Source of the DNA: an uncultured Bacteroidales bacterium
Lineage (GTDB): Bacteria > Bacteroidota > Bacteroidia > Bacteroidales > Paludibacteraceae
Length of the DNA: 56,135 bases
Assembly: GCA_903901975.1 (NCBI GenBank)
Contig: CAIUTB010000102.1
Coordinates: 1 to 56,135, forward strand
Direction of reading: 5' to 3'
Shown here: one piece after another, positions 25,408 through 47,639 of the stretch
Position numbering within the stretch: position 1 is the stretch's first letter
Layout: each line of letters starts with the position of its first letter
Program-made: the position numbers and the translations under genes
The notes under the pieces: generated by a model
The model's input: only the letters and a program-made list of their open reading frames with translations
What the model was told of the DNA's origin: nothing
Databases searched by the model: none

Positions 25408-28260
25408 TTGACTACAATTCCCGAAATACAACCCGTAGAAGCTTCAGAGTATGTAGAAGTAATTGGCGCACGGGTTCATAATCTCAAAAATATCGATGTT
25501 TCGATCCCACGCGATGCCCTGACTGTGATTACCGGTCTAAGCGGAAGTGGAAAATCATCACTCGCTTTCGACACCATTTTTGCAGAAGGGCAGCGCCGTT
25601 ACATAGAGACTTTCTCGGCTTATGCCCGAAGTTTTCTGGGGAATATGGAACGTCCCGATGTGGATAAAATAACCGGTTTAAGTCCGGTTATCTCCATTGA
25701 GCAAAAAACGACCAACAAAAATCCACGATCCACCGTTGGTACCACCACCGAAATTTATGACTTTCTGCGTTTACTCTTTGCACGAGCCGGCGAGGCATTT
25801 TCGTATGTTACGGGTGAAAAAATGGTGAAATACTCTGAAGATCAGATTGTTGATTTAATTCTGAAAGACTACGAAGGCAAAAAGACTTTCTTGCTTTCGC
25901 CCTTGGTTCGTGGCCGAAAAGGACATTACAAAGAACTTTTTGAGCAAATTCGCAAAAAGGGTTATTTACATGTCCGTATCGACGGTGAAGTGCGCGAAGC
26001 CACACACGGTCTTAAGCTCGACCGCTACAAAAACCACGACATCGAAGTGGTGATTGATAAGTTATCAGTAAGCGAAAAAGACCGCGCCCGCCTGAAACAA
26101 TCGATGCAAAAAGCAATGCAACAGGGCAATGGCATCGTCATGTTGTTGGAAAAAGATAGCGACGAAACCCGTTATTTTAGTAAAATGTTGATGTGCCCTA
26201 CCAGCGGCATTTCGTACGACGAACCTGCACCTCATAACTTTTCGTTCAATTCGCCACACGGCGCTTGTCATAAGTGTAAAGGACTTGGATTTGTCAACCA
26301 GATTGACATGGATAAAATTGTTCCGGATAAAAAGCTAAGTATATACAATGGAGCTATTTCACCACTCGGAAAACACAAGGCAACCACGATTTTTTGGCAG
26401 GTGGAAGCGATATTGGAAAAATACGACTGTAATTTGAAATCTCCGGTTGCCGATATTCCGGAGGAAGCCATGGACGAAATAATGAATGGTACAGAAGAAC
26501 GCTTACACATTAAAAATCAATCGATTGGCACAAATTATTTTCTGAGTTACGATGGCATTCTGAAATACATTGAAATGCAGACTGAAAACGGTGCTTCAGC
26601 AACGGAACAAAAATGGGCTAACCAATTTTCAAAATCAATTGTATGTCCGGAATGTAAAGGGGCTAAACTTCGGAAAGAATCGCTCCATTTCCGTATGCAC
26701 GATAAAAATATTGCAGAGTTATCGGCCATGGATATTGCAGAATTATCGGAATGGCTGAATAAGGTGGAGATTCATTTGTCGGAAAAACAAAAAACAATTG
26801 CCGCTGAAATTCTAAAAGAGATAAGAACACGACTTCAATTCTTATTAGACGTTGGGTTGAATTATTTATCGTTGAACCGTAGTTCACAATCACTTTCGGG
26901 CGGTGAAAGTCAGCGCATACGACTGGCTACACAAATTGGTTCGCAATTGGTAAATGTGCTTTACATTCTAGATGAACCCAGTATCGGATTACATCAGCGG
27001 GATAATCAGCGCCTTATTCGTTCACTAAAACAATTGCGTGATAGCGGAAACTCCGTTATTGTGGTGGAACACGACAAAGATATGATGATGGCTGCCGATT
27101 ATATTATTGACCTGGGACCACACGCCGGTCGCTTGGGTGGTGAAGTTGTTTTTGCCGGAACACCGCAAGAAATGCTTACTGCCAATACGCTTACTTCTGC
27201 TTACCTGAACGGGACAAAACGGATTGAACTTCCGCAAAAAATCAGAGAGGGTAATGGGCTTTTCCTAACACTGAAAGGTGCAACAGGAAACAATCTGAAG
27301 AATATAAATGTCAGCTTCCCGCTCGGAAAAATGATTTGTGTAACGGGAGTTTCAGGCAGTGGTAAGTCAACCTTGATAAACGAAACCCTGCAGCCTATTC
27401 TGAGTCAGGAATTTTACAAATCGTTACAAGATCCTTTGCCATACAAAAGTATAGAAGGACTTGAGAATATAGATAAAGTGGTGGAAGTGGATCAATCGCC
27501 TATTGGTCGCACTCCACGTTCGAACCCTGCTACTTACACCGGTGTTTTTTCAGATATTCGAAATGTTTTCGTAACCCTGCCCGAAGCTAAAATCCGTGGT
27601 TATAAACCGGGACGTTTTTCGTTCAATACGGCTGGTGGTCGCTGTGAAGTGTGTGGTGGAAATGGATATAAAACCATTGAAATGAATTTTCTGCCCGACG
27701 TGTATGTTCCTTGCGAAAGTTGTGACGGTAAGCGTTACAATAAGGAAACACTCGAAGTGCGCTTCAAAGGAAAATCGATTGCCGATGTACTGAATATGAC
27801 TATCGATCAGGCTGTTGACTTTTTCGAAAATCAACCTAATATTCTGAATCGAATCAAAACATTGCAGGATGTCGGACTTGGTTACATCAAACTCGGACAA
27901 TCAAGTACAACCCTTTCGGGCGGCGAAAGTCAACGGGTAAAATTAGCCACCGAATTGTCTAAACGCGACACCGGAAAAACGCTATATATTCTGGATGAAC
28001 CAACCACCGGATTGCATTTTGAAGATATCCGTGTGTTACTCGGCGTGCTCAACCGCCTTGTAAATAAAGGAAATACAGTAATCGTAATCGAACATAATAT
28101 TGATGTAATCAAAGTGGCCGATCATATTATCGATATTGGTCCGGAAGGTGGTGCAGCCGGGGGAAAAGTTATCTGTACCGGAACGCCAAGCGAAATCGCA
28201 CACCATAAAACCAGCGAAACGGGAAAGTTTTTGAAAATGGAGTTGGCCCCTAACCCCTAA
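25408..28260 (+). CDS. uvrA: Excinuclease ABC subunit A
   Basis: 950 residues. UvrA finds bulky DNA lesions in nucleotide excision repair and loads UvrB. It has two ABC modules: Walker [12 protein letters not shown] and [11 protein letters not shown], signature [13 protein letters not shown] and [13 protein letters not shown], each followed by LDEP. Zinc modules are [10 protein letters not shown] with CHKCKGLG, and CEVCGGNGY with CESCDGKRY. The start is a TTG at 25408; an in-frame TAA at 25393-25395 and no ATG or GTG between them force this choice unless the protein begins much further in. The last residues APNP and the stop codon are encoded by a CCCCTAACCCCTAAAGGGG repeat, so the native C-terminus was probably altered slightly. 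Confidence 0.96.
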
Positions 28261-28399
28261 AGGGGAATTATAATAGTCCACTTGTTTTTATTTGTTCTAT
28301 AAATAGACTATTTTTGTAAATTATTTTGATTTAAATCAAGGACATTTATTTAATTCACTTTAAATCTGGTCTTCAAGTCCCCTTTAGGGGATTTAGGGG
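28247..28399. repeat. CCCCTAAAGGGG element A (inverted pair filling the uvrA-hisB gap)
   Basis: The left arm CCCCTAACCCCTAAAGGGG (28247-28265) and a right arm in the opposite orientation (28379-28399, CCCCTTTAGGGG then ATTTAGGGG) enclose about 113 AT-rich bases. The left arm overlaps the uvrA stop codon and the right arm ends 17 bases before the hisB ATG. The same word occurs in element B (31188-31320) and singly at 47569-47592. Each arm contains its own palindrome, CCCC-TAAA-GGGG. Confidence 0.9.
28309..28316 (+). promoter_or_regulatory. Candidate hisB -7 box inside element A
   Basis: TATTTTTG matches TAnnTTTG exactly, about 100 bases before the hisB ATG. A TTTG lies at 28291-28294 but only 14 bases upstream. 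At 19-21 bases there is only a T-run. Confidence 0.4.
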
Positions 28400-28416
28400 T
28401 CATTAAATTATAAGTC

Positions 28417-29550
28417 ATGCCAGAAATAATCAAAAAGAAAGTACTTTTCATTGACCGTGATGGAACTATCATAAACGAACCGCCGGTAACCTTTCAGGTT
28501 GATACCCTGGAGCAAATGGAATTTTTGCCGGGCGTTTTGCGTAATCTGCATTTTATTCGTCAGAAACTGGATTTTGAATGGGCATTGGTAACTAATCAGG
28601 ATGGTCTTGGCACTGAAGTTTATCCTCAAGCTAATTTTGATTCGGTTCAGGCTAAATTCCTTCAAACACTGGCTAACGAGGACATTAGTTTCGATAAAAT
28701 TTTTATCGACAAATCCTTCTCTGAAGATAATCTGCCAACCCGAAAACCGGGTACAGCCTTGCTGAAAGAATACTTTTCCCAAAAATATGATTTGGCAGGC
28801 TCATTCGTGATTGGCGATCGGATTACCGATGTGGAACTGGCTAAAAACCTGGGATGTAAAGCAATTTTGATAAGCGATGACTCTGAAATTCTGAAAGATA
28901 AGAATTTAGCAGAATTTTGTGCCTTGCAAACAAGCAGTTGGGATGCAATTGCTGAATTTCTGTTTGCCGGTGAGCGCACTGCCACTGTAAAACGAACCAC
29001 CAAAGAAACAGATATCTTTATTGAACTGAATCTGGATGGTTCAGGAAAATGCAATATTGACACCGGATTAAAATTCTTCGACCATATGCTGGAACAGATT
29101 GGCAAACACTCCGGTTCTGACCTCAGCATTAAAGTGAAAGGTGATTTAGAAGTGGACGAGCATCACACGATTGAAGATACTGCTATTGCGCTGGGCGAAG
29201 CTCTTGGCAAAGCGTTAGGAAATAAACGGGGTATCGAACGCTATGGTTTTTACCTGCCCATGGACGATTGTTTATGTTCGGTGGCACTGGACTTTGGTGG
29301 TCGTGCCTGGCTGGTTTTCGATGCTGAATTCAAACGCGAGTATATTGGCGATTTACCCACCGAAATGATTTACCATTTCTTCAAATCACTGAGCGATGCT
29401 GCCCGTATAAATCTGAATATAAAAGCGGAAGGTGATAATGAACATCACAAACTGGAAGGCATCTTCAAAGCATTGGCTAAGTCGATAAAAATGGCAGTGA
29501 AGCGCGATATTTATCAGTATGAATTGCCTTCTACCAAAGGACTTCTTTGA
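28417..29550 (+). CDS. hisB: Bifunctional histidinol-phosphatase / imidazoleglycerol-phosphate dehydratase
   Basis: 377 residues, the bifunctional HisB layout. It catalyses steps 7 and 9 of histidine synthesis. The N-terminal HAD phosphatase (about 1-165) has [10 protein letters not shown], with nucleophile and acid aspartates, and [16 protein letters not shown]. The C-terminal dehydratase (about 185-377) has [31 protein letters not shown] and [13 protein letters not shown], the histidine-rich Mn-binding motifs. No other his gene is nearby, although hisG, hisD and hisC often accompany it in the phylum, so it is either detached from the operon or moved. It sits behind element A. Confidence 0.95.
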
Positions 29551-29583
29551 TTTACAATTTATTCATTACAGTTTACTATTGAA

Positions 29584-31194
29584 ATGAGATTTTTGCTCCA
29601 TAATATTTTCTTAATTTCTATTCTTCTGCTTCTAAGCCTGCATGTTTCAGCACAACCATCAACAGTTGAGCGACCACGATTGGTAGTGGGCATCATGGTG
29701 GATGGTTTGCAGCAAAAACACATTGATTTGCTGTGGAACTACTTCGACCCGAACGGTTTCAAAAAAATCATCGGTCAGGGAGCAAATTGCCGGAATGTTT
29801 CGTACAACATTGTTTCGGCAGGAAATGCTTCCGACATAGCCACCGTAATGACTGGATCGATACCTTATTATAATGGAATTGTAGGTAATAATTATTATAA
29901 CAGAACTGAAGATGAAATACAATCGATAATACAAGATGATGACCAAATTGGCATTGGAACGAAGCAGACTTTATCAGCTCACAACTTATTAGCAAGTACG
30001 ATTAGCGATGAGATTATACTTGCTAATCCCGGAAAATCGAAAAGTTACGCGGTGGCTTTAAGTCCCGAAGAAGCGATTATGCTGGGCGGTCATACGGCAA
30101 AAAGCGTAGCATGGATAGACGATGTAAATTATAAATGGATTACAACCGGATATTATACCGACGGGCTTTCGCATTGGGCTGATGAGATGAATGTGAATGG
30201 CGTTTTCCAGAATTATATGTCACGAACCTGGGGGCCGATATACAACATTAATACCTATTTGTCAAAACCAAATCGTGAAGACAAAAAATGGGGATTCTTT
30301 TATGATCCCACAACGAAAAAGGGGAAACATTCACTGGCATCCATTCTCCGAACGACACCTGCTGCAAACGGTTTAGTAACAGAACTGGGTTTGAAAATTC
30401 TCGAAAATGAGCATTTAGGAACAGAGAGTCAACCGGATATTCTGTTGTTGCAATTTACAGTTCGCACCCCTTTCGAGAAAACAACTTCACTTCAATCTGC
30501 TGAGAAAGAAGATATTTACCTTCGACTGGACAAAGAAATTCAGACTTTATTACAAAAAATAGATGTTAAAGTGGGTTTAGACCGAACCCTGATTTATATG
30601 TTTGGCAATCAAACTCAGATACACTCACCAACCGAACTGGGCGAAAATAAGATTCCGGCAGGTTACTTCAATGCTGACCGGTCACTGGCTTTGCTGAGCA
30701 CCTATTTGATGGCTATTTATGGACAGGAAAAATGGATTTCGGGCTACTATGGCAAAAACATTTTTCTTAATAAAGTAAAAATTGAAGAGAAAAAACTCAA
30801 TTTTACCGATTTTCAAAAAACAGTTGCCGAATTTATGCTTGATTTTGAAGGAATTCAGTCTGCAATTCAATCATCACAAGTGCTTAATTTGGGCGGAAAT
30901 TCAAATTCAGAAATGACCAGAATTAGAAATTCAACCAATAAAAATTGTGTTGGTGATATAATAATTACTTTATTGCCGGGTTGGATTGAAGTGGACAATA
31001 AAAATAATCCGGTTGGTGAATCAAATTCGATTGTTTCGTACACACCACTTTACTTCTTTGGTTGGAAAATAAAACCACAAACTGTTTCTGCATCCTATCA
31101 AACTACTGATATTGCTCCAACTATTTCTCGCATTCTCGATATTCCGATGCCAAATGCCTGTATTGGAAAGCCGATAATTGAAATAAACCCCTAA
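29584..31194 (+). CDS. Alkaline-phosphatase-superfamily (PafA-like) protein lacking metal ligands
   Basis: 536 residues with signal peptide 1-23 (ending LHVSA), so it is exported. The fold is recognisable from PRLVVGIMVDGLQ at the start, IYLRLDKEIQTLLQKID in the middle, and YFFGWKIKPQ ... TDIAPTISRILDIPMPNACIGKPI at the end. Active relatives have D-x-V-G-H, T-A-D-H-G and Y-D-T-H-V-P blocks for the two zinc ions. Here the equivalent places read RTPFEKT, MFGNQTQ and VSYTPL. The nucleophile block reads SAGNASDIATVMTGS. Only the N-terminal aspartate (MVDG) remains. It is probably a binding or structural pseudoenzyme of the periplasm. Its stop codon lies in element B. Confidence 0.8.
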   Translation: MRFLLHNIFLISILLLLSLHVSAQPSTVERPRLVVGIMVDGLQQKHIDLLWNYFDPNGFKKIIGQGANCRNVSYNIVSAGNASDIATVMTGSIPYYNGIVGNNYYNRTEDEIQSIIQDDDQIGIGTKQTLSAHNLLASTISDEIILANPGKSKSYAVALSPEEAIMLGGHTAKSVAWIDDVNYKWITTGYYTDGLSHWADEMNVNGVFQNYMSRTWGPIYNINTYLSKPNREDKKWGFFYDPTTKKGKHSLASILRTTPAANGLVTELGLKILENEHLGTESQPDILLLQFTVRTPFEKTTSLQSAEKEDIYLRLDKEIQTLLQKIDVKVGLDRTLIYMFGNQTQIHSPTELGENKIPAGYFNADRSLALLSTYLMAIYGQEKWISGYYGKNIFLNKVKIEEKKLNFTDFQKTVAEFMLDFEGIQSAIQSSQVLNLGGNSNSEMTRIRNSTNKNCVGDIIITLLPGWIEVDNKNNPVGESNSIVSYTPLYFFGWKIKPQTVSASYQTTDIAPTISRILDIPMPNACIGKPIIEINP

Positions 31195-31320
31195 AAAGAC
31201 CCCCAACCCCTAAAGGGGAGAAACGAAAATACTAAATTTATTTTCAAGACCAAGATGAAAAATATTAATAAAAATACAGGAAATGAAAGTAACTCCAGTT
31301 CCCCTTTAGGGGTTAGGGGT
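31188..31320. repeat. CCCCTAAAGGGG element B (inverted pair across the phosphatase-patB border)
   Basis: The left arm at 31188-31219 (CCCCTAAAAAGACCCCC, then AACCCCTAAAGGGG) and the right arm at 31299-31320 (CCCCTTTAGGGGTTAGGGG) are inverted relative to each other and enclose about 80 bases. The right arm is an exact inverted copy of the left arm of element A over about 21 bases. The left arm provides the stop codon of the upstream gene. The right arm lies inside the reading frame of patB and ends just before its conserved core. Confidence 0.9.
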
Positions 31321-47568: not shown

Positions 47569-47592
47569 CCCCTAAATTCCCTAAAGGGGAAA
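47569..47592. repeat. CCCCTAAAGGGG element C (single arm)
   Basis: CCCCTAAATTCCCTAAAGGGG differs by one base from the inverted right arm of element A. It starts four bases after the PG0541-type stop codon. No partner arm is found within the next kilobase. Confidence 0.85.
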
Positions 47593-47596
47593 TAAA

Positions 47597-47639
47597 GAAA
47601 ATGCGCTTCCCGACCAATTCGGTGAAGCGCATTTTTTAT
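47597..47639. terminator. Bidirectional terminator of efflux operon and cyclophilin gene
   Basis: AATGCGCTTC (47600-47609) pairs with GAAGCGCATT (47624-47633). The stem continues inward with CCGA/TCGG and loop CCAAT. A plus-strand T-run follows and an A-rich stretch precedes it. Confidence 0.9.

Follow-up and report, generated by a model that had tools for sequence, protein, structure and literature searches.

Palindrome-armed elements at gene borders in a Bacteroidales genome and their linkage to DUF559 nuclease genes

What are the paired palindromes that sit at gene borders in the genome of an uncultured member of the Bacteroidales? The window analyzed here, positions 1 to 56,135 of contig CAIUTB010000102.1 of assembly GCA_903901975.1 (Paludibacteraceae; 56,135 nucleotides [nt]), contains two such elements, A between uvrA and hisB and B between a PafA-like phosphatase gene and patB, and a single arm at 47569. 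An initial annotation had proposed a short mobile family akin to repetitive extragenic palindromes (REPs) or bacterial interspersed mosaic elements (BIMEs) that targets gene ends. We find instead that A and B are most likely non-autonomous members of a mobile family in which palindromic arms enclose a DUF559 gene, and family membership of the two elements is well supported. The evidence lies in the anatomy of the arms, their linkage to DUF559 genes, the matching of arm type to DUF559 group, two forms of element at one border, and presence, absence and replacement of elements between species. To the whole explanation, an arm-ended mobile family with DUF559-bearing full-length forms spread by endonuclease-triggered copying, we assign a probability of about 0.6.

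Two Elements and a Single Arm

The features of the window are the following.

28247 to 28265, plus strand: left arm of element A, with outer CCCC, linker TAA and hairpin CCCCTAAAGGGG; the uvrA stop codon (28258 to 28260) lies within it.
28266 to 28378, no strand: interior of element A, 113 nt, AT-rich.
28379 to 28399, minus strand: right arm of element A, reading on that strand as outer CCCC, linker TAAAT and hairpin CCCCTAAAGGGG; subtype TAAAT/ACTT.
31188 to 31195, plus strand: extra half-arm CCCCTAAA to the left of element B, providing the phosphatase stop codon (31192 to 31194).
31200 to 31218, plus strand: left arm of element B, with outer CCCCC, linker AA and hairpin CCCCTAAAGGGG.
31219 to 31300, no strand: interior of element B, 82 nt, containing the ATG (31255) of the longest patB frame.
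31301 to 31319, minus strand: right arm of element B, with outer CCCC, linker TAA and hairpin CCCCTAAAGGGG; translated in frame as PLGVRG in the patB open reading frame (ORF).
47569 to 47589, plus strand: single arm, with outer CCCC, linker TAAAT and hairpin TCCCTAAAGGGG (one mismatch).

Each arm comprises an outer run of C, a short linker, a hairpin of the form CCCC-TAAA-GGGG and an inner word. The hairpin word CCCCTAAAGGGG is exact at 28254–28265 and 31207–31218 on the plus strand and at 28379–28390 and 31301–31312 on the minus strand, with a one-mismatch copy at 47578–47589; these five matches at no more than one mismatch compare with 0.09 expected and a maximum of one in any of 100 shuffles. 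The arm pairs were recovered by an inverted-repeat search (16 nt at 94% and 21 nt at 95%), and single-strand folding of the elements is stabler than in 200 of 200 shuffles (z = −4.1 for A and −4.4 for B). Both elements and the single arm are real, far beyond chance, as first described. The inverted arrangement of the arms likewise stands, their length being 19–21 nt for the arms proper rather than the 20–30 originally given, and the reported identity of one arm of A with one of B over 21 bases is confirmed by CCCCTAACCCCTAAAGGGGAA, common to the left arm of A and the reversed right arm of B. In element A a left arm of TAA type is paired with a right arm of TAAAT type, a different subtype, and in element B an AA-type arm with a TAA-type one; the inner words fit TAA/AA and TAAAT/ACTT in A, and AA/AG and TAA/AA in B. 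An Rfam scan of the window gave no match.

The hairpin word is abundant beyond the window. It occurs 136 times (68 + 68) in its own genome (3.97 Mb in 170 contigs), where the reversed control occurs 0 times and single exact arms are common, and its counts range from 0 to 261 over 24 genomes of the genus, own genome included, which bears out the idea of a short multicopy palindromic family. Among other families of the order it is present in 4 of 16 genomes (2 to 37 copies). A draw of 395 genomes from the phylum, with the own genome as sole member of its genus, yielded the word in 46; because few of them carry five or more copies (the own genome and 8 others), we conclude that the word is amplified in scattered lineages.

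Linkage of the Arms to DUF559 Genes

At a border where relative G043 has a short element, its close relative G020 has a DUF559 gene and extra arms. DUF559 (PF04480) is represented by at least one domain in 37 of 48 genomes of the genus and by four domains in the own genome, three of them in frame within other genes and one free with longer arms. In a genus sample of 33 loci, a short-stem hairpin (CCCC-n-GGGG) lies within 400 bp of DUF559 at 22 loci and a longer-stem hairpin at nine more, giving a C-run hairpin, short or long, on at least one side at 31 of the 33 (the exceptions are L178 and L184). The exact window word was found 29 times in the 25,844 bp within 400 bp of these domains versus twice in the 46,960 bp lying 700–1500 bp away; it stands at nine of the loci, at six of them on both sides. 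The same arms as in the window thus flank DUF559 genes in relatives.

Linkage extends to other phyla. The best 80 of at least 581 DUF559 loci in named genomes were scanned, 79 of them with enough flank, and an inverted repeat between the two flanks reached a score of at least 14 at 42 of the 79 loci versus 5.1% of cross-locus controls, and at least 18 at 24 of the 79 versus 1.5%. Repeat-flanked copies were found in Bacteroidales, Pedobacter, Chloroflexi/Anaerolineae, Planctomycetia and cyanobacteria. Outside the genus, a strong DUF559 match (E < 1e-15, a cut of our own choosing) is present in 9 of 11 genomes with five or more words versus 17 of 51 without the word (Fisher p = 0.005).

DUF559 was also detected on 77 viral contigs. 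Three of the 40 viral loci tested scored at least 14 and two at least 18, and with 2 of 40 reaching the stronger score, viral DUF559 genes were rejected as a general source. The DUF559 genes of viral contigs L305 and L313 are flanked by the same kind of C-rich palindromic arms, and such contigs may serve to carry elements from host to host.

DUF559-Bearing and ORF-Less Forms at One Border

The relation between short elements and DUF559-bearing elements is seen most directly between trpB and trpE, where paired arms occupy the same two places in eight species, some with a few changes. In six of these (G001, G008, G004, G061, G049 and G040) the arms enclose a DUF559 frame of the group designated A below, the copy in G040 being partial with an internal stop. 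In G020 and G043 they enclose nothing but a short, AT-rich, ORF-less interior. This suggests that DUF559-bearing elements and short elements such as those of the window are two forms of the same kind of element, the comparison giving the alternation of the two forms and not their order of origin.

Turnover of Elements between Relatives

Orthologous borders differ in whether, and with what, they are filled. The uvrA 3′ region was detected in 48 genomes of the genus, and 30 loci were compared, 29 from relatives. In the eight relatives in which hisB adjoins uvrA, paired arms like those of the window are present in G019 and G017 and decayed in G045 and G062; G009 has a different arm, and G015, G016 and G007 have none. 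One type of interior is common to the own genome and G019 and differs from the others; another is common to G017, G045 and G062.

A finer comparison is provided by the species pair G020 and G043, which are 96% identical around uvrA. We compared 20 contigs of the former with 20 stretches of the latter, using ten contig pairs; 16 borders were comparable, and seven further sites lacking a matchable flank were left out. Arms or clear remains are present in both species at 14 of the 16 borders, and the element is confined to G020 at the other two, one of which has a diverged neighboring gene. Two borders have unrelated interiors despite flanks that are 87–94% identical; one of the two also shows a joint change in the loops of its two arm hairpins. 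The interior differs largely at three more borders and is mostly conserved at the rest.

Elements therefore turn over: a border may be filled, empty or refilled in relatives, and because orthologous borders vary in this way, the arms are not a fixed feature of them. The initial annotation had looked to precise empty sites in relatives as support for mobility; alleles with and without an element exist, as does replacement. The outcome that it named as evidence to the contrary, the same words at the same borders in every relative with no variation in copy number, is not what we find.

The same species pair offers three further observations. At L138 of G020 (∼2767–2836) a whole arm with ∼46 flanking bases is tandemly duplicated, a duplication absent from its sister species G043. 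At L141 of G043 a different palindrome, GATCCCGATAACTATCGGGA, lies inside an arm hairpin that is plain in G020 (L136:3634), so that one palindrome family appears to have been inserted in another. At L130 of G020 (∼1100–1130) the palindrome CCGTCAGTTGACGG stands in place of a hairpin where G043 (L157) has an exact left arm.

Arm Type Follows DUF559 Group

The 33 DUF559 domains were placed in a tree, and two well-supported adjacent groups of free-standing copies (L172, L175, L177 and L187; L173, L180, L183 and L188) were taken together as group A, eight loci in a grouping drawn after seeing the tree and weakly supported as a single clade. The window word lies beside seven of the eight group-A domains versus 2 of the 25 others (p = 6e-5). 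Another free-standing group (L171, L174 and L176) has CCCCAAATGGGG at all three loci, a word found at no other of the 33, and longer-stem arms accompany the MetH and LeuS inserts and two of the three ValS inserts. We conclude that arm type follows DUF559 group. Further group-A members, nine not used before, were picked by profile score; six have the exact word and all nine some CCCC-n-GGGG hairpin nearby.

Parts of an arm also vary together. Among 157 distinct arms, linkers and inner words are paired (TAAAT with ACTT in 18 of 20, AAG with ATGT in 9 of 9, AAA with CTT in 14 of 16, TAA with AA in at least 55 of 58), with a mutual information of 1.78 bits versus 0.38 when shuffled (maximum 0.54 of 1000). 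Shared descent of arm types can give this match without any pairing.

The bases adjoining L178 and L184, the DUF559 pair without arms, are GGGGACGAGCGAAGCGGAGGGG, perhaps another type of repeat.

These data bear on the idea that the arms themselves are what moves or recombines, multiplied by slippage in host replication or recombination, with DUF559 as a passenger. The mostly unique interiors, the common single exact arms, the tandem duplication of an arm with its ∼46-nt flank in G020, and the richness in words of the own genome and of G011 without a matching enzyme would all fit. Nevertheless, a passenger need neither match its arm type nor keep its catalytic residues (see below), and DUF559 is enclosed by arms in several phyla; we consider this explanation rather unlikely.

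Transposase-Based Alternatives

According to the accessible part of PMC6006769, the TnpAREP subclass 2.6, mostly of Bacteroidetes, is flanked by atypical REP hairpins with copies elsewhere in the genome. Because of these atypical REPs we took as first rival a REP-associated tyrosine transposase (RAYT) of this subclass, with the arms as the REPs or BIMEs that it mobilizes. Seven Y1_Tnp genes were found in the own genome by a PF01797 profile search, and each arm is, like a REP, a hairpin with a foot word. However, no CCCC-n-GGGG hairpin lies within 1.5 kb (or to the contig end) on either side of six of the seven genes, and the seventh, with an arm pair ∼1.1 kb away, has its own, different upstream repeat. 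Neither GTAG nor GTGG occurs in the 7 nt preceding the hairpin in any of 55 exact arms; the linkers in most of the 157 arms are TAA, TAAAT, AAA, AA, TAG and AAG. The arms adjoin DUF559 genes instead, and the membership in REP/BIME families proposed in the initial annotation, together with its tyrosine transposase, was rejected as very improbable on these data from the own genome. At L037 (own-genome contig 53, 977–1827), the sequence upstream of a divergent Y1 transposase gene has a directly repeated word (CDFKSGF-VCN-AL in one frame), and gene and word together resemble a REP/RAYT pair separate from the arms.

The elements also resemble miniature inverted-repeat transposable elements (MITEs), here of an unseen insertion sequence (IS) with a DDE transposase and CCCC-rich terminal repeats: A and B have terminal inverted repeats, no coding capacity and a size of ∼130–155 bp. 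Copies derived from a parent IS would share an interior, whereas comparison of 55 distinct own-genome arms over their inner 60 nt gave five similar pairs, and no target-site duplication was recognized by eye. Three frames between arms 700–820 bp apart (L038, L041 and L043) match no Pfam family, DDE families not having been searched directly, and in G036 two frames between arms 1551 bp apart resemble, by eye, a regulator and a membrane protein. We regard a MITE origin as highly improbable.

Placement at Gene Borders

The elements are placed at stop and start codons as originally described. The left arm of A includes the uvrA stop, and the start of hisB follows the element at 17 nt; the half-arm bordering B on the left supplies the phosphatase stop. 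For patB, the longest frame apparently begins at 31255 in the interior of B, and within 31255–31320 the right arm of the element codes for an N-terminal extension, SSPLGVRG, that is absent from the PatB family model, which aligns only from residue 26. Of 38 own-genome arms examined, 31 lie within 60 bp of an ORF end versus 397 of 1000 random non-ORF positions; ORFs of 150 aa or more contain 3 of the 38, versus 65% of random positions, ORFs in these counts being plain ATG-to-stop frames and not curated genes. The 136 copies of the word thus belong to a high-copy, mainly extragenic hairpin. Targeting of gene ends, as first proposed, is not demonstrated by this placement: counterselection of insertions elsewhere gives the same pattern, and related elements occur inside genes in frame. 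Under the mode of spread proposed below, placement at borders would reflect where insertions are tolerated.

Could the arms instead be non-mobile regulatory hairpins, that is, terminators, protectors of mRNA 3′ ends or promoter cassettes, kept at borders by selection? Their proximity to ORF ends and strong folding would agree with this, as would one of three terminator-like sites between 28000 and 31600, which lies on the minus strand over the left arm of B. The interior of A has a word, TATTTTTG at 28309–28316, that we take to be promoter-like and that is also found at this border in relatives without an element. However, terminator-like sites are not in excess (3 versus 3.0 in shuffles). The arm at 47569 begins 3 nt after the stop of a P-II-like gene and is followed by a separate terminator-like inverted repeat (47598–47635), so that this arm is not obviously the terminator. 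Counts from 0 to 261 within one genus, orthologous borders with and without an element, and copies in frame within enzymes likewise argue against selection at fixed places, and we consider a purely regulatory nature improbable. Words of the form TAnnTTTG, presumably a promoter-like motif, occur both in the interior of A (window 28290–28330) and in the empty alleles of relatives at the same border; element A may have replaced or captured the hisB promoter.

In-Frame Inserts and the Encoded Nuclease

DUF559 domains also interrupt conserved enzymes. The sole strong match to IleS in the own genome (contig 52) is one open frame containing two DUF559 domains (L161 and L164) and an arm relic, and this frame retains the motifs that we take to be the HIGH- and KMSKR-type motifs of the enzyme. 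In an alignment of 30 IleS frames, three carry DUF559 at site 1 and two at site 2. Judged by eye, the site 1 inserts of about five others are palindrome-coded but lack DUF559, most frames have plain short loops, and the insert at site 2 replaces about ten loop residues with no evident target duplication. Host frames in the genus are PurL, ValS, UvrA, MetH, LeuS and IleS (9 of 10 scanned), and in named genomes LeuS (seven), MetH and acetate-CoA ligase (9 of 11 scanned).

The interrupted frames are open throughout arms and DUF559. No intein-type Pfam domain was found in seven interrupted frames and no Rfam intron or other family in 15 DUF559 loci, and carriage by an intron or intein was accordingly rejected. 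Because free-standing homing endonucleases exist, as stated in the accessible part of PMC3943268, membership in the homing endonucleases is still allowed. The 33-domain tree brings together domains that share an insertion site, the clustering being strong for IleS site 2, PurL, ValS and MetH and weak for IleS site 1. Homing endonucleases would be expected to show this, as would domains inherited vertically and lost in places.

Pfam assigned the three domain segments scanned to DUF559, with MTES_1575 below the cutoff in all but one, and detected no extra DNA-binding domain in them. The DUF559 profile matches Protein Data Bank entries 3HRL (E = 1e-30) and 3R3P (E = 3.6e-7). A model of a related DUF559 copy (predicted local distance difference test score 88.7) has template modeling scores of 0.78 with 3HRL, 0.70–0.72 with I-Bth0305I and 0.52 with Vsr, so that the modeled fold matches that of the homing endonuclease I-Bth0305I, an example of the EDxHD homing endonucleases in the accessible part of PMC3943268. 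DUF559 retains the catalytic E, D and ExD and, mostly, the H: residues E15, D43, E54, D56 and D67 are invariant in both DUF559 alignments; H60 is invariant in 21 named-genome rows and lost in own-genome copy L164. PADLOC gave weak partial matches only.

Proposed Mode of Spread

We propose that full-length members consist of arms enclosing one gene for a DUF559 endonuclease of ∼100 residues, kin of Vsr and I-Bth0305I. The endonuclease would recognize or cut the arms, or an empty site, and host recombination would mend the break by copying an element in. Such copying would install or swap the DNA between arms and could move ORF-less copies such as A and B in trans. Repair with homology confined to the arms would lead to interiors being exchanged while the arms stay in place. 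This mode of movement, endonuclease-triggered copying, is what we infer from the arrangement of arms and genes.

Several observations weigh against this explanation. Cleavage and movement are themselves inferred steps. The interiors, almost all unrelated within the own genome, are unlike those of a classical transposon copy family; interior swapping between loci of one genome is unsupported, as the loci have no interiors in common. Alignments of IleS and of borders give no clean target-site duplication by eye, the alleles having diverged and loop residues having been replaced. At the looser default cut the co-occurrence of words and DUF559 is 9 of 11 versus 26 of 51 genomes (p = 0.09); the number of words correlates with that of DUF559 domains (Spearman 0.66, n = 25) but also with genome size (0.57), and G011 has 104 words and no DUF559 match.

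The matching of arm type to group A has its own exceptions. L178 and L184 join group A on a long branch flagged as unsure and lack such arms. Of the nine further group-A loci, three lack the exact word, three words fall in the far control zones, and five stand, with L180, at the single trpB–trpE border; they are not independent and count as few events. The four DUF559 copies of the own genome all belong to groups other than A, so that the presumed partner enzyme may be absent from this genome or unassembled (170 contigs). Nor does the presence of group A explain the number of words (p = 0.12, n = 25, not significant).

If endonuclease-triggered copying is right, the elements may, more tentatively, form a new class: palindrome-armed units driven by a solitary EDxHD/Vsr-like nuclease, without transposase, intron or intein. 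Such units would give rise to swarms of ORF-less copies, with interiors exchanged between persisting arms, and would colonize both intergenic sites and, in frame and unspliced, the loops of essential enzymes, aminoacyl-tRNA synthetases among them. The open PubMed Central (PMC) literature yielded no account of DUF559 beside palindromic arms or of such in-frame inserts, subscription papers and preprints being largely outside that search; six arm-type peptides were not found there either, and the 12-nt word CCCCTAAAGGGG occurs in one paper, on Escherichia coli NarL.

DUF559 is a widespread family of unknown function that would gain a role if it is what moves palindrome-armed elements. This would account for many intergenic palindromes and unusual in-frame inserts of Bacteroidota, with kin in Chloroflexota, Cyanobacteria and Planctomycetes, and would place a nuclease-only route of mobility beside transposases and intron or intein homing. 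The sole detected IleS of the own genome, with its two DUF559 domains, makes the tolerance of unspliced selfish inserts in essential enzymes testable.

Comparison with Known Systems

The DUF559 units resemble the EDxHD/Vsr-like homing endonucleases, such as I-Bth0305I, in fold, catalytic residues, copies intervening in conserved genes, clustering by site and patchy presence. They differ in having no detected intron or intein, in being bounded by palindromic arms, in being intergenic as well, and in their numerous ORF-less copies. With MITEs they have in common short, ORF-less elements with terminal inverted repeats; unlike MITEs they have no common interior, and no DDE transposase or target-site duplication was seen, neither having been searched for exhaustively.

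REPtrons likewise have small hairpins, each with a foot word, in numerous extragenic copies, and a single enzyme gene with hairpins on its flanks. Here, however, the enzyme is a Vsr/EDxHD-like nuclease and not a Y1 transposase, there is no GTAG foot, and the arms come in inverted pairs. Rickettsia palindromic elements (RPEs), according to the accessible parts of PMC10969869 and PMC3733652, are found in frame within proteins that are unrelated and apparently functional. The elements studied here are likewise palindromic and inserted in frame in proteins, but some in-frame copies hold an endonuclease domain, which those parts report for no RPE. By analogy, the system would combine the workings of homing endonucleases, REPtrons and RPEs.

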